This document shows positions 4,682 through 44,443 of a stretch of DNA of 64,000 bases, in pieces. Below the pieces are notes generated by a model. That model made no database searches. It was not told the origin of the DNA and worked only from the letters and a program-made list of their open reading frames with translations. A program made the translations under genes and the position numbers. Within the stretch, counting starts at the first letter, position 1; every line of letters starts with the position of its first letter. This DNA comes from a virus, in the IMG/VR virus record IMGVR_UViG_3300028840_001395, positions 186,001-250,000 of that record, one strand, 5' to 3'.

Positions 4682-5066
4682 CTTCCTCGTCTTCCATGCA
4701 CGGCAACCGCTGCTGCCCGACCTTCTCCAGCCCGGCGTAGTCGATGGCGTCCGGGTTGCGAACTCGCGGGTCACTCGACGGCTCGACCTTGTTGCCCTCG
4801 TCATCCGTCAAGTCCGAGACGTGAATCCAGCCCCGGTTCTTGGTCACGGCCTGGTCGTCCATCTTGTCGTCGGCGCACTTGGTGAAGCTGGCGTGAACGC
4901 TGATCTCGGCATCTTCGAGGAGGGTTCTGGAATCCTCCTTGATCGCCTCTTCGGCCAGCTTGAGTGTCGCCTTGTCGTTGCCTTGATCCTCGACCCATAC
5001 GTGCATCATCTGGATGTCCACGTCCGGGGTCACGCACACCTTCCGCATGAACTTCTTCTCGGCCAT
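4671..5066 (-). CDS. Hypothetical acidic protein, 131 aa
   Basis: Not recognised; acidic, ending in a run of Glu/Asp. The ATG at 5066 follows GGAGGTAAGGGCG. Part of the minus-strand unit that begins at the promoter at 5814-5846. Confidence 0.6.
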   Translation of the reverse strand: MAEKKFMRKVCVTPDVDIQMMHVWVEDQGNDKATLKLAEEAIKEDSRTLLEDAEISVHASFTKCADDKMDDQAVTKNRGWIHVSDLTDDEGNKVEPSSDPRVRNPDAIDYAGLEKVGQQRLPCMEDEEDGD

Positions 5067-5071
5067 CGCCC

Positions 5072-5305
5072 TTACCTCCGCAGGTTGGCTGCCTGGGCGA
5101 CGAGCCTGTCCGTAGCATCCTGCTTGGACTCGAACGGAAAAGAGTCCGAATGCGTCGGGATCATGTTCCACGTCGCCGCCCACTTCTTCGTCCTGGGGTG
5201 ACGGGACACGATACCGATGAACTCGCTCCCCCGGAACACGTCATGGGCCTCGACGCCCTGGGCGTCCACCTCGATGCGGAGCTTGAACGTCAACTTGCCG
5301 GGCAT
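5072..5305 (-). CDS. Hypothetical protein, 77 aa
   Basis: Not recognised; beta-strand-like N-terminal half. Its ATG overlaps the stop of the SLOG gene by one base (TGATG), so the two are probably translationally coupled. Confidence 0.6.
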   Translation of the reverse strand: MPGKLTFKLRIEVDAQGVEAHDVFRGSEFIGIVSRHPRTKKWAATWNMIPTHSDSFPFESKQDATDRLVAQAANLRR

Positions 5306-5799
5306 CACGATCTCCGAACCTCGGAGCCATCGGGCAGGATGACGATCACCTTGCGTGCCCCGCCCGGCGGCTTCTTCCCCAGCTCGCCCGCCGAATACCG
5401 CACCGTGGCCCACGTCCCACCGCCCCGCTTCTGCTTGGGTTCCTCCATCTCCTTCGGACAGGCGATGACCCACACCGACTCGTCCGCGATGTCGTGGTCA
5501 CGGGCCAGGAACTTCTTCGGAGGACGTTCCTCGACCGCGTGGCGGCACTCGGCCCGGAGGTCACGAACGAGCGGCGGGTGGAGAACCACGTCACCGCCGA
5601 AGGCCAGGACGAGCGTGTGGAACTCGGCGTCCGCACCCTCGCAGTCGCCGTGGTGACCCCGGATCGTCCGGTGGTTGAAAGGCTCGACGGAGCCGTCCGG
5701 GGAGCCGCCCGCCGCCATGCGCTGGAAGATCGCTCCCAGCGTGCGAAGCTGGGCCGCAGTGCAGCCCTGGCGAGTCCCGGTGAAACCAATGTCGATCAC
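5305..5799 (-). CDS. SLOG-superfamily (DprA/LOG-like) Rossmann protein, 164 aa
   Basis: The N-terminus reads MIDIGFTGTRQGCT, followed around residue 50 by HHGDCEGAD and then a Phe-His and a His-Pro-Pro. This is the layout of small SLOG-fold proteins related to DprA and LOG, which bind nucleotides or nucleotide-derived ligands. Family knowledge: some SLOG domains, such as that of the Thoeris effector ThsA, sense NAD-derived cyclic ADP-ribose. No such role can be proven here. First gene of a unit read from the promoter at 5814-5846. Confidence 0.75.
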   Translation of the reverse strand: MIDIGFTGTRQGCTAAQLRTLGAIFQRMAAGGSPDGSVEPFNHRTIRGHHGDCEGADAEFHTLVLAFGGDVVLHPPLVRDLRAECRHAVEERPPKKFLARDHDIADESVWVIACPKEMEEPKQKRGGGTWATVRYSAGELGKKPPGGARKVIVILPDGSEVRRS

Positions 5800-11552: not shown

Positions 11553-11588
11553 GGGGGTCTTATCTTGAGTCCCGACAGAGTAGTCTAG
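11553..11588 (+). promoter_or_regulatory. Phage-type promoter, right half of a divergent pair
   Basis: GGGGGTCTTATC, 16-nt spacer ending GACAGAG, TAGTCTAGG, then GGAG ahead of the 11608 start codon. Confidence 0.85.
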
Positions 11589-12114: not shown

Positions 12115-12148
12115 GGGGCTTACTTCCGGCCCGGTGAGAGTAGTCTGG
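12115..12148 (+). promoter_or_regulatory. Phage-type promoter (CTTACT-N16-TAGTCTGG)
   Basis: GGGGGCTTACT, spacer ending GTGAGAG, TAGTCTGG, 15 nt before the ligase start codon. It abuts the TAG stop at 12112-12114. Confidence 0.85.
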
Positions 12149-12162
12149 TCACGGAGGTTTCG

Positions 12163-13302
12163 ATGGCCAAGTCCAAGATCGAGAAGCTCGCGGCCCTGAT
12201 CGCCAAGGCCAAGGACGCGTACTACAACGGGAAACCCATCATGGGTGACCCCGAGTATGACGCGCTCGAAGACGAGCTGCGGAAGCTCGACCCGAGCAAC
12301 CCCGTCCTGGCGATGGTCGGTGCAGACCCGACCGGGAGCGGCTGGCCCAAGGTCAAGCACGAGATCCCGATGGGGTCGCTCCGCAAGGCCCAGGACTCCG
12401 ACGACATGGACAAGTGGTTCTCGACGCAGAGCGTCAACACGCCGGTCTGTGTCTCCGACAAGCTCGACGGCATCAGCATCGGCCTGCGCTACGAGAAAGG
12501 CAAGCTCGTCCAGGGCTTGACGCGGGGCGACGGCGACACGGGTGAGGACATCACCAGGAACGTCATGCTGATGCAGGGCGCGGTCAAGGTGCTCCCCAAG
12601 ACGGTCAAGGGCAAGCCCCTCCCCGACGTGGTGTACGTGCGGGGCGAGGTGGTGGTCAAGAAGTCCGACTTCGCCGCCAACTTCAAGGGCGACTCCAACC
12701 CGAGGAACACCGCGAGCGGGACGGCCAAGCGCCAGAGTGACCCGAGCAAGTGCAAGCACCTGACCATCCTCGCGTACCAGTGGCTCCCGGACGGCATGGC
12801 CCCGGAGTTCAAGTGCGACGAGTTCCACGCGCTGGTCGAGGCCGGGTTCCAAACCGCCAACTTCAAGGTCTGCAAGAACGCGGCCCAGGTACAGGCCTTC
12901 TACCAGGAGTACGTGGACAAGACCCGCGACTCCCTGGACTACCTGATCGACGGGCTCGTGGTGGACATCGATGACCGGGACGTGCGCGAGGGCAAGGGCA
13001 CCACGGACGGTCGGCCCAAGGGCGCGGTGGCCTACAAGTTCCCGCACGAGAAGAAGCCGACCACGCTCCGGAACATCCGCTGGCAGGTGGGCAACTCGGG
13101 GCGCATCACCCCGGTCGCAGAGTTCGACACCGTGAACCTGGCGGGCGCGAACGTGAGCCAGGCCAGCCTCCACACGGTCGAGCGTGTCAAGAAGTTGAAA
13201 TTGTTCAAGGGATGCCGTATCCTGGTGTCGCGGCGAAATGATGTGATTCCAATGGTGGAGGCAAACCTGGATGAAAACATCAACATCAGCGACTTCGAGT
13301 AG
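12163..13302 (+). CDS. ligA: NAD-dependent DNA ligase, N-terminal part (adenylation and OB domains), 379 aa
   Basis: The first half of a bacterial-type LigA. Domain Ia is at residues 1-60 (YYNG, EYDAL). The adenylation motif KLDG places the AMP-accepting lysine at K100, followed by TRGDGDTGED (about 120-129), the NPRNTASGT motif and a later AYKFP. An OB-fold segment with NLAGANVSQASLH ends at the ARRND-VIP-like strand. The protein stops there, where an intact LigA (about 670 aa) would continue into the zinc finger. A homing endonuclease gene follows, overlapping by 32 nt. From about 13190 codon use shifts to AT-richer codons, as if the end of this gene came with the insertion. Whether it works with the separately encoded C-terminal part is inference. 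Confidence 0.9.
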   Translation: MAKSKIEKLAALIAKAKDAYYNGKPIMGDPEYDALEDELRKLDPSNPVLAMVGADPTGSGWPKVKHEIPMGSLRKAQDSDDMDKWFSTQSVNTPVCVSDKLDGISIGLRYEKGKLVQGLTRGDGDTGEDITRNVMLMQGAVKVLPKTVKGKPLPDVVYVRGEVVVKKSDFAANFKGDSNPRNTASGTAKRQSDPSKCKHLTILAYQWLPDGMAPEFKCDEFHALVEAGFQTANFKVCKNAAQVQAFYQEYVDKTRDSLDYLIDGLVVDIDDRDVREGKGTTDGRPKGAVAYKFPHEKKPTTLRNIRWQVGNSGRITPVAEFDTVNLAGANVSQASLHTVERVKKLKLFKGCRILVSRRNDVIPMVEANLDENINISDFE

Positions 13303-14098
13303 CTATCTGGTATGCCCCGTCTGCCAGCGTAAGATGCGGTCTATCACCACACAGCACATCAAGAAGCATGGCTTTGAGGATGCGAAGTCATTCAAGAGAC
13401 ACTTCGGACTAGATTCTCTCAAGTGTGATGAGATGCGAGGACGCCAGTCCAAGTTCATGTCGTCACACAACCCCACCGCAGGGAATGGACACACCCCAAC
13501 GTCCATCAAGAAGATGAGGGAACGACGCAAGGGGAAAGGACTCGGTGTGGCCGGGAAGTACGAGAGGACTCCCGAGATACGCCTCAAGATATCGAAGGGT
13601 GTCACCCGAGCATGGGAAAAGGGGAAGAGAGGAAGAGGATGGTACGTTTACGGTCGCAAGGCTGAAAAGAAGGTATGGGTTCGGTCTTCCTGGGAAGAAC
13701 GGGTGGTGAGAGTCTTGGACTCCCATCCCTGTGTCCTTCGGTATGAGGTAGAACCCTTCCAGATTCCTTACTGGCATAACGGAAATCCGCATCGATACAC
13801 CCCTGACTTCTTGGTGATGTTGGAGGGTAACATCAAGGAACTGTGGGAGGTGAAACCACAGGAACTCCTGAATTTGCACCGTAATCCTTCCAAGATTGCT
13901 GCCTTGAATGAGTTTGCGGTAGATCACGGCATCAACACCAGGGTGGTTACTCTTGAGCACATAGAGGGGATGGAGAGACAGGTGGGAATCCAGCCGTGGA
14001 CGGGGGCTGGAGGGCCGTGGGTGAAACCGGATGACCCTGACTTCCGACCCCGAAGCCCCCGAGAACAAAAGGGCTTATCTGACGACTCAGTGGAGTAG
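13271..14098 (+). CDS. Free-standing homing endonuclease, Vsr/EDxHD-like (PD-(D/E)xK), 275 aa
   Basis: An N-terminal C2H2-like finger (CPVCQRKM ... HIKKHG) leads into a basic NUMOD-like linker and then a nuclease core: SSWEERVV near residue 145, YTPDFLV near 175 and ELWEVKP near 190. This is the layout of Vsr-like homing endonucleases such as I-Bth0305I that interrupt or sit beside phage replication genes. It lies between the two ligase parts. Its base composition is clearly lower in GC than its flanks, which marks it as an insertion. The start ATG has GGAGG upstream, and the TAG stop is part of the next promoter's -10 element. Confidence 0.85.
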   Translation: MKTSTSATSSSYLVCPVCQRKMRSITTQHIKKHGFEDAKSFKRHFGLDSLKCDEMRGRQSKFMSSHNPTAGNGHTPTSIKKMRERRKGKGLGVAGKYERTPEIRLKISKGVTRAWEKGKRGRGWYVYGRKAEKKVWVRSSWEERVVRVLDSHPCVLRYEVEPFQIPYWHNGNPHRYTPDFLVMLEGNIKELWEVKPQELLNLHRNPSKIAALNEFAVDHGINTRVVTLEHIEGMERQVGIQPWTGAGGPWVKPDDPDFRPRSPREQKGLSDDSVE

Positions 14099-14104
14099 TC
14101 TAGG
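14071..14104 (+). promoter_or_regulatory. Phage-type promoter for the C-terminal ligase part
   Basis: GGGCTTATC, 16-nt spacer, TAGTCTAGG. It overlaps the end of the homing endonuclease gene (stop TAG at 14096-14098 is the start of TAGTCT) and gives the second ligase part its own transcription start. Confidence 0.85.
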
Positions 14105-14118
14105 TGAAGGAGAAGATG

Positions 14119-14946
14119 ATGACCGTGTCAGCAGCGAGAGAGTATTTTGAAGCACCGACCCTCTGCCCCTCCTGCGGGGGCCAGCTCAAGCGGGACGGCG
14201 AGTACCTCATCTGCCCGAACACCGATGGCTGCGAGGCCCAGGCGACCGGCGCTATCAAGCGCTGGTGCAAGAAGATCGACGTGAAGCACGTCGGGGAGAG
14301 CCTCATCGTGGTGCTGGTCGAGGAGGGGCTGGTCAAGGACATCGCAGACCTGTACACGCTCGACCCCGCCGAGGTCGAGAACCTGACGATGGGCGACCGC
14401 CGGGTGGGCGGTACGGGTCGCAAGGCCGTGACCAACCTGCGGAACAAGATGGCCCTCCCGCTGCACGTCTTCGTCGGGAGTCTCGGCATCCCGCTCATCG
14501 GGCGCAGCATGGCCAAGACCATCGTGGACGGCGGTTTCGACAGCCTCTCGAAGATGCTCAAGGCCAAGATCTCCGAGGTCGCCGCCATCCCCGGCGTCGG
14601 CCAGAGCAAGGCCGACAGCTTCGTCAAGGGCTTCACCGCCAAGGCCGGGCTGGTCGCCAAGCTCATCTCGGTCGGCATCGTGGTGCAGAGCGCCACCGGG
14701 CCGCTCAAGGGCAAGGTCTTTTGCCTCACGGGCTTCCGCGACAGCGACCTGACCGAGGCCATCGAGCGGGCGGGTGGCACGGTCAAGTCCAGCGTGAGCA
14801 AGAAGCTGACGCACCTGGTGCTCAAGGATCCGTCCTCGACTTCGGGCAAGGCGAAGAAGGCCCGCGACTACAACAAGCAGGGCGTGGCCGACATCGAACT
14901 GATAGACCCGGACGAGGCGTGGGATCTCGCGGGAGGTCGTCCGTGA
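14119..14946 (+). CDS. ligA: NAD-dependent DNA ligase, C-terminal part (Zn finger, HhH, BRCT), 275 aa
   Basis: It begins where a normal LigA would reach the zinc finger: CPSC at about residue 16 and CPNTDGC about 15 residues later. Helix-hairpin-helix repeats fill about 45-190, and a BRCT domain starting GKVFCLTGF runs to the end. There is no adenylation domain, so alone it can only bind DNA. Start chosen at ATG 14119, 6 nt after AAGGAG; an ATG one codon earlier is possible. Together with 12163-13302 it would rebuild a nearly complete ligase with little sequence lost at the junction. Confidence 0.9.
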   Translation: MTVSAAREYFEAPTLCPSCGGQLKRDGEYLICPNTDGCEAQATGAIKRWCKKIDVKHVGESLIVVLVEEGLVKDIADLYTLDPAEVENLTMGDRRVGGTGRKAVTNLRNKMALPLHVFVGSLGIPLIGRSMAKTIVDGGFDSLSKMLKAKISEVAAIPGVGQSKADSFVKGFTAKAGLVAKLISVGIVVQSATGPLKGKVFCLTGFRDSDLTEAIERAGGTVKSSVSKKLTHLVLKDPSSTSGKAKKARDYNKQGVADIELIDPDEAWDLAGGRP

Positions 14947-16812: not shown

Positions 16813-18489
16813 ATGGCAGAGAAGCTCAAGAGACGCGAGTTCCCGTCCGGCTACAACCCGGACGACTTCGAGTACAAGGGTCGCCCGGCCAACGACCAGG
16901 GCGACTTCGGCGGCGACGTGGGCATCGCGGACATGGCCTGCGTCGATCAGTTCGGAGAGAAGAACGCCAGCAAGTTCTACCACGGCGGCGTCGTCCAGGC
17001 GAACGACGGCACCTGGTTCCTCTACACGGAGTGGGGCCGCTGCAAGCCCGGCAACTCCTGGTCGGGTTCGTCCTGGACGGGCAACGCCCAGGACTTCCAG
17101 TTCGTCCGCTGCGGCTCCGAGGATGAGACCCGCGCCGAGTTCGCCAAGAAGATGGCGAGCAAGAACACCAAGCGCCTGACGCAGATCGACGTGGGCGGCA
17201 AGAAGGTGTGGGCGGGCAAGAAGGGCAAGGACGGCTACATCGTCCAGCAGCTTGCCACCCGCGAGAAGGGCCTCCCCGACGCCCTCCGCATCAAGGACAA
17301 CTCGGGCGTCGGCTCCGCCGCCAACGGTGGCAACGGCAAGACGGCGAAGCCGAAGGCCAAGGGCAAGAAGGCCAAGGCCGCGAAGCCGACCCGCAAGTTC
17401 GACCAGCAGGTCGTGTCCCTCGCTTCGTCGCTGGTCGGCGGCACGCAGACCTACACCCGGTCGCTCTCGGCGGCGTCCGGCGTCACGCCGACGATGAACG
17501 CCATCGAGGAGGTCAGGAACGACCTGATCCCCGCCGCGATGGAGCGCATCAAGACGGTCGGTGACGACGTGAGCGCCCAGGTGCGGGACAACAAGCTCGT
17601 CGCCATCTCCAAGATGGTCGCCGCGATGGTTCCGCGCCCCATCCCGCGCAAGGGCCAGAGCGAGGAGGACGCGATCCTCTCCGGCGGCAACATCCTGGTC
17701 TTGCAGCAGGACTTGGACGCCTTCGAGGCCGCGCTCCTGAACGAGGACTTCGAGCAGGAGGCCCCCGACACCACGGTCAACCCGGACACGCTGCTCAACG
17801 CCCGGCTGTCCTACCTCGACCCCAAGGGTGACGGCAAGTGGGTCGCCCAGGCCTTCGCCAAGATGACCGCCAACCGGCACGGCTACATCCGGGGCCGGAT
17901 GAACGTGCGGCACATCTTCGCCGTCGAGCGCCCCGACCGCGACGCCCGGTTCATGAAGTGCGTCAAGCAGATCGCGGCCAAGCGCAAGGGCCGGTTCAGC
18001 CTGACGGCGAACCTCCAGCCCCGCTCGCGGAACGACCTGAACGGCATCGGGGACGACTATGGCCTGGCGAACGTGGTGCTGGCCATCCACGGCACCCGGC
18101 CCGTCAACATCGCCCCCATCATGGGGACGAACTTCCGACTGCCGCGCAGTCTGCCCGGCGCGCAGATCACCGGGGCCAACTTCGGTCACGGGGTGTACTT
18201 CGCCACGGACTGGAAGAAGTCCTACGGCTACACGGGGCGCGGGTACTGGGGGCACTCGGGCGGCGACATCCGCAACCGAGGGTGCTTCATGTTCCTCTGC
18301 GACATGGCGATGGGCGACCCCTACCGCGCCCCCTCGACCGGCTCATGGAGCCAGCCCCCGCAGGGCAAGGACTCCGTGTTCGGCGTCGGCGGCGACCGAG
18401 GCCACCGGCTGGAGAACGACGAACACGTCATCTTCAACCCGGACTACCAGCGCATCCGCTACCTGGTCGAGTTCGACTGGCTGACCTAG
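16813..18489 (+). CDS. WGR-domain poly(ADP-ribose) polymerase-like protein, 558 aa
   Basis: Transfers ADP-ribose from NAD+ to an acceptor if active. Residues about 50-160 form a WGR domain (W74-G75-R76), the nucleic-acid-binding and allosteric domain of DNA-dependent PARPs. A Lys/Ala-rich linker (about 175-195) and a helical region (195-350) follow. The C-terminal catalytic domain has the full H-Y-E triad: H426 in HGTR, Y462 in GHGVYFATD and E537 in NDEHVIF. An intact triad is typical of polymer-forming PARPs. There are no zinc fingers, as in bacterial PARPs and PARP2/3. It sits between the split ligase and small genes, under its own strong promoter. Target and role in infection are unknown. 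Confidence 0.9.
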   Translation: MAEKLKRREFPSGYNPDDFEYKGRPANDQGDFGGDVGIADMACVDQFGEKNASKFYHGGVVQANDGTWFLYTEWGRCKPGNSWSGSSWTGNAQDFQFVRCGSEDETRAEFAKKMASKNTKRLTQIDVGGKKVWAGKKGKDGYIVQQLATREKGLPDALRIKDNSGVGSAANGGNGKTAKPKAKGKKAKAAKPTRKFDQQVVSLASSLVGGTQTYTRSLSAASGVTPTMNAIEEVRNDLIPAAMERIKTVGDDVSAQVRDNKLVAISKMVAAMVPRPIPRKGQSEEDAILSGGNILVLQQDLDAFEAALLNEDFEQEAPDTTVNPDTLLNARLSYLDPKGDGKWVAQAFAKMTANRHGYIRGRMNVRHIFAVERPDRDARFMKCVKQIAAKRKGRFSLTANLQPRSRNDLNGIGDDYGLANVVLAIHGTRPVNIAPIMGTNFRLPRSLPGAQITGANFGHGVYFATDWKKSYGYTGRGYWGHSGGDIRNRGCFMFLCDMAMGDPYRAPSTGSWSQPPQGKDSVFGVGGDRGHRLENDEHVIFNPDYQRIRYLVEFDWLT

Positions 18490-44408: not shown

Positions 44409-44443
44409 GGGTCTTATCTCGGGCTGCAGGGGAGTAGTCTAGG
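44409..44443 (+). promoter_or_regulatory. Phage-type promoter, right half of a divergent pair
   Basis: GGGTCTTATC, 16-nt spacer ending GGGGAG, TAGTCTAGG, just ahead of the 44465 gene. Confidence 0.85.

Follow-up and report, generated by a model that had tools for sequence, protein, structure and literature searches.

The NAD-dependent DNA ligase gene (ligA) of a giant phage is split into two open reading frames (ORFs) by a nuclease gene, with none of the ligase missing by comparison with intact relatives. The two ORFs lie on the same strand, in the order of the ligase domains, in the window, a stretch of 64,000 nucleotides within a 435.8-kb virus record (Table 1). Judging from the sequences, at least seven different large phages have had exactly this joint of ligA invaded by such a nuclease gene. 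We consider it likely that a free-standing TnsA-like homing endonuclease invaded ligA and left two cistrons, which would most probably encode a two-subunit ligase.

Table 1. Positions in the window of the ligase halves, the nuclease gene and associated elements
Feature	Position	Strand	Basis
Promoter-like motif CTTA-N17-GTAGTCT before part A	12119..12146	+	Perfect copy; promoter role inferred
Ligase part A, 379 aa	12163..13302	+	PF01653, PF03120; PHROG 3869 positions 6-383; KxDG
Probable co-converted flank, 3' end of part A	13213..13302	+	GC3 0.64; matching L037 region diverges from L036
Probable homing endonuclease of TnsA-like type, 275 aa, with a C2H2-type finger, a NUMOD3-like stretch and a PD-(D/E)XK core	13271..14098	+	PF08722, Foldseek
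Promoter-like motif CTTA-N17-GTAGTCT in nuclease 3' end, before part B	14074..14101	+	Perfect copy; promoter role inferred
Ligase part B, 280 aa if read from GTG 14104	14104..14946	+	Pfam HhH/BRCT; PHROG 3869 positions 385-643

Part A matches the NAD-ligase adenylation domain at residues 61-295 (Pfam, E 2e-49) and the OB domain at residues 300-371 (E 1e-20). Part B matches the HhH and BRCT domains; its match to the C4 zinc finger is weak and below the profile cut-off, and all four zinc cysteines are kept in its translation. The two proteins together thus carry the adenylation, OB, C4 Zn, HhH and BRCT elements of a LigA in the usual order, with the lysine of the KxDG motif, and they cover PHROG 3869, a complete NAD ligase of 656 positions, without a gap. 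The catalytic equivalents K115, D117, G118, E173, R200, R277, D285, G286 and K314 are conserved in part A, which differs from the E. coli enzyme by R208 to K and K290 to D, two positions that are also variable in intact phage relatives. Uninterrupted ligA genes, for which the preliminary description had suggested a search, were found in many related viral contigs (designated here by L numbers), L001 being 53% identical, and both halves are about equally conserved with respect to the latter (52-53%). The same description had held that the adenylation/OB and Zn-HhH-BRCT parts are separate genes fractured by an apparently mobile nuclease gene and that little sequence was lost; the Pfam domains, the position of the nuclease ORF between the halves, the PHROG coverage and the comparisons with empty sites given below all agree with it.

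The nuclease ORF begins within the end of part A, with which it shares 32 bp, and 5 bp separate its end from the GTG at 14104. It scores 49.2 bits against the TnsA N-terminal domain of Pfam, for which the curated cut-off (PF08722) is 26.5 bits, and matches T7 endonuclease I weakly. A PDB sequence search returned essentially T7 endonuclease I, and the predicted model is closest to TnsA (Foldseek, E 8e-6), with a pLDDT of about 72-92 in the core and poor values in the remainder. Residues E142, D179 and E193-x-K195 are conserved across the homologues, the N-terminus is a CxxC...HxxxH finger, and the L037 homologue contains a NUMOD3 motif, which is a mark of homing endonucleases. Within the PD-(D/E)XK enzymes, these profile matches and the predicted fold place the nuclease in the branch that contains TnsA and T7 endonuclease I. 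The Vsr/EDxHD identity given in the preliminary description had to be abandoned for the window nuclease, which showed no Vsr match and was placed in that branch by Pfam, PDB search and Foldseek alike. It shares with TnsA of Tn7 and with T7 endonuclease I the nuclease core and the conserved acidic and lysine residues; however, TnsA is a transposase subunit and T7 endonuclease I a junction resolvase, whereas the window nuclease stands alone and comprises a finger and NUMOD3-like parts. The nuclease found in ligA is probably a homing endonuclease, and TnsA-like nucleases a probable type of such enzymes; we know of no tested TnsA-like homing endonuclease.

No relatives of the nuclease were found in bacterial genomes, and among named phages the matches were all weak, chiefly to annotated head-completion proteins. 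In the records searched for further copies (those of the window, L033, L037 and L091), a single one was present in each. More distant TnsA-like nucleases are encoded at L097:6518-7453, L099:6590-7573, L102:6584-7567 and L106:6644-7627, in each case directly downstream of a gene whose product, of roughly 800 aa, is of one kind in all four; another, smaller TnsA-like ORF often lies close by. The ligA gap of L033 also contains, next to the nuclease, an additional ORF (4706-5713) that includes a DGQHR stretch and has no Pfam match.

A nuclease of the window type was identified at the same OB/Zn joint in seven phages: the window, L033 (536 kb), L037 (619 kb), L091, L092/L093, L157/L158 and L162. 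In trees calculated separately for parts A and B with the junction left out, the nuclease-split ligases fall among intact ones. Constraining the first five split phages (window, L033, L037, L091 and L092) to one clade was rejected by the AU test, with p values of 1.5e-65 for part A and 2e-45 for part B, and the nuclease state needs 7 changes on a ligase tree of 93 rows. The distribution of the nuclease at this single site of ligA is thus scattered and polyphyletic. A mismatch between the nuclease and ligase trees was also sought; it was not demonstrable because the nuclease tree has no well-supported branch.

Two pairs of close relatives allow the occupied and empty sites to be compared. The split gene of L037 has as sister the intact gene of L036, with identities of 77% over the first exon and 80% over the second; between the exons, 84 bases remain unmatched in L036 against 916 in L037. 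Upstream of the insert there is a stretch of roughly 150 bp over which identity drops; downstream it recovers sharply. Between L162 (split) and L173 (intact), about 10 bp are unmatched between the exons. No residues are missing in either pair, and these comparisons therefore indicate that nothing essential was lost by the split. Base composition changes around the insert as well. Up to about position 13210 of the window, part A has a GC3 of 0.88-1.0, which falls to 0.64 over its final codons. The nuclease has 0.62 and the first codons of part B 0.72, after which the values are mostly above 0.9. The lowered GC3 thus spans the insert and about 80 bp on either side of it, versus about 0.95 elsewhere, a profile that fits insertion by homing with co-converted flanks.

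The start of part B is more likely one of the ATG codons at 14116 and 14119, which are preceded by GAAGGAG, giving this half its own ribosome-binding site. Upstream of both halves we found a perfect copy of the motif CTTA-N17-GTAGTCT, with identical spacing, the second copy covering the final codons of the nuclease ORF. The motif occurs 50 times in perfect form in the 435.8-kb record, versus 0 for the reversed pattern used as a control, and its copies in the window mostly lie about 15-22 bp upstream of a start codon with a ribosome-binding site in between. These positions suggest that it acts as a promoter, and the copy at the end of the nuclease ORF would probably drive expression of part B. 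The preliminary description had proposed that a phage promoter has arisen at the end of the nuclease gene: a promoter-like motif is indeed present there before part B, but a motif that arose in place is indistinguishable from one that came with the insert. The motif was sought at eight loci of related phages and was absent from them. In the window it is present in 15 perfect copies (e.g. 11559-11586 and 44413-44440), several of them as divergent pairs. One copy lies upstream of a gene just downstream of the ligase (16813-18489), whose 558-aa product has a PARP catalytic domain (PF00644, E 5e-16).

Eroded stages, in which ligA is split but the nuclease is reduced or absent, were also identified. 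In L160 the gap between the halves holds the finger end of the nuclease and nothing more of it, a reading that rests on a short CxxC...HxxxH stretch judged by eye. In L129 the nuclease is absent and the tail resembles that of the window (ANLDLNIRVS). In L054, L178, L191, L193, L194 and L195, which form one clade, the two ligase halves are independent genes on opposite strands. Phage T5 and T5-like phages also have ligA split at the same OB/Zn joint, and their ligases form a separate clade in the ligase trees. That both halves have been kept for so long as separate genes is, among the sequence data, the best argument for a working two-piece ligase. In marine T5-like phages, an ORF of the GIY-YIG-like T5orf172 type lies directly before the second ligase half, e.g. 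L007:5895-6263, and is placed likewise in L010, L011, L013, L015, L016, L018-L021, L025 and L026.

The nuclease-bearing alleles all have similar flanks (L-x-L-F/W-x-G-C). Immediately before [IV]LVSRRNDVIP, the window (13213-13230) encodes a Cys where intact ligases usually have Asp or Ala. Cys precedes ILVSRRNDVIP in 7/7 nuclease-bearing, 8/8 T5-like and 4/6 opposite-strand ligases, in neither of the 2 with adjacent halves and no nuclease, and in 3 of 68 intact ones. Cys had been considered as a mark of every split ligase. It was perfect in the first set and was rejected on the wider one, which includes split ligases with A, T or D and three intact ones with C; a tree-aware test of Cys versus split state was not significant. 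Cys nonetheless remains a frequent feature of split ligases.

According to the explanation that we favour, a TnsA-like free-standing homing endonuclease would have entered the ligase gene where the OB fold meets the zinc finger. The enzyme presumably cuts the intact gene close to the codons of the conserved ...LVSRRNDVIP... stretch, and repair of the break would copy the nuclease gene together with flanking DNA from an invaded allele. Since neither an intron nor an intein is present, ligA would have become two cistrons. The break lies between two independently folding modules and removed nothing, so that the two proteins most likely dock and parts A and B would form a two-subunit ligase. A split ligA could then remain split, with gradual erosion of the nuclease and with the two halves moving away from each other like any other genes.

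If the insert were instead an intron, RNA splicing would restore a single LigA reading frame. The residue counts around the joint allow an in-frame junction, and phage group I introns commonly hold nuclease ORFs. Yet an Rfam search of the window for intron families with E values up to 1 gave no match to a group I or II ribozyme core, and no Rfam intron match was obtained for L033, L034, L037 or L050 either. In L037, L091 and L092 each of the three ORFs overlaps its neighbour, which leaves no non-coding room for a ribozyme core, and in the window part B has a ribosome-binding site and a promoter motif of its own. Splicing, which the preliminary description had named as the outcome to speak against its reading, has thus left no sign, and we regard it as highly improbable. 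Inactivation by the insertion is unlikely too, though less so. The host probably carries its own LigA, so that a non-functional phage ligase would be tolerable for some time, and the split gene might be a dying pseudogene for which the host enzyme substitutes. Against this, the domains, the zinc cysteines and most catalytic residues are retained in the two halves, which are conserved to about the same degree, and split alleles endure in deep separate lineages, the opposite-strand clade and the T5-like phages included.

The order of events may also be questioned. For Aeromonas phages, whose gene 43 is split, a review (PMC2988022) raises the possibility that splitting came before the nuclease, and ligA could likewise have been split first, as in T5, the nuclease landing in the gap later; the several split alleles that lack the nuclease (L129, L160, the L054 clade and T5-like phages) would be accounted for in this way. 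The nearest relatives of L037 and L162 are intact, though, and the nuclease remnant of L160 and the window-like tail of L129 fit loss of the nuclease after the split, which makes this order rather improbable. A single ancestral split inherited vertically, with intact copies as re-fusions, would explain the similar flanks common to all nuclease-bearing alleles. It is strongly disfavoured by the sequences, given that the AU tests rejected one clade and that several precise, frame-restoring deletions of the nuclease would be required, and we give it very little credence.

The class of mechanism is already known in T4-like phages: nrdA of Aeromonas phage Aeh1 is split by mobE, the T4 topoisomerase gene by mobA, and gene 43 of Aeromonas phage 25 is split with a seg nuclease; the products of split nrdA and gene 43 form working enzymes (PMC2988022). 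As in these cases, a free-standing nuclease gene lies between the halves of a DNA-metabolism gene, with overlapping start and stop codons and no splicing. Like fractured genes of the mobE/nrdA type, ligA has intact homologues, a nuclease between its halves without intron or intein, and a scattered distribution. In contrast to these systems, where the nucleases are of the HNH or GIY-YIG type, the nuclease of ligA is TnsA-like PD-(D/E)XK, the gene hit is ligA, the break falls between domains, at least seven phages are concerned, and empty sites and eroded stages are visible. New, as far as we found, are the gene and the type of nuclease, together with the fact that a single domain joint is hit repeatedly and that the stages can be seen. 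As ligA is cut into two genes by the nuclease, the working enzyme is probably made of two pieces, an arrangement that the annotation of phage T5 already gives for its ligase.

The NAD ligase of T5 is also encoded by two genes, LigA and LigB (AY543070, 65364-66335 and 66538-67317), separated at the same OB/Zn joint as in the window and with annotated promoters between them; unlike in the window, no nuclease is present there. Searches of the open-access literature yielded nothing useful on the splitting of ligA or the subunits of the T5 ligase. The alleles described here offer a possible route to the two-gene ligase of T5, and gene fission is seen in them to be recurrent and traceable, with intact, invaded, nuclease-eroded and stable two-gene states all surviving within one ligase family. 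More speculatively, TnsA-like nucleases may be a homing family dedicated to a single ligA joint, invasion and subsequent nuclease loss making the two-subunit NAD ligases of phages, T5 LigA/LigB included, with a co-carried flank perhaps adapted to the split enzyme; we advance this as a tentative idea, on balance doubtful.

A second kind of break affects ligA in the related phages L034 (4426-7918), L050 (5199-8755) and L091 (4371-6882): a split intein interrupts the gene at its active-site KxDGxS motif, and a gene for a Vsr-like nuclease separates the halves. The intein halves were found by profile in L034 and L091 and weakly in L050; the best match of the L034 nuclease is Vsr, at a weak E of 0.07. 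Dassa et al. reportedly described such split-intein fractured genes with Vsr-like (EDxHD) nucleases in 2009. The window resembles them in having a nuclease gene between the halves of a gene for a DNA-metabolism enzyme but differs in its nuclease family and break position and in lacking an intein, parts A and B giving no match to Hint/intein profiles. Two answers to selfish attack can thus be compared in one enzyme, namely split inteins that would rejoin the protein and bare fission, after which the enzyme has to function as two subunits. In L091 both breaks are present, and its LigA is therefore encoded by three genes.
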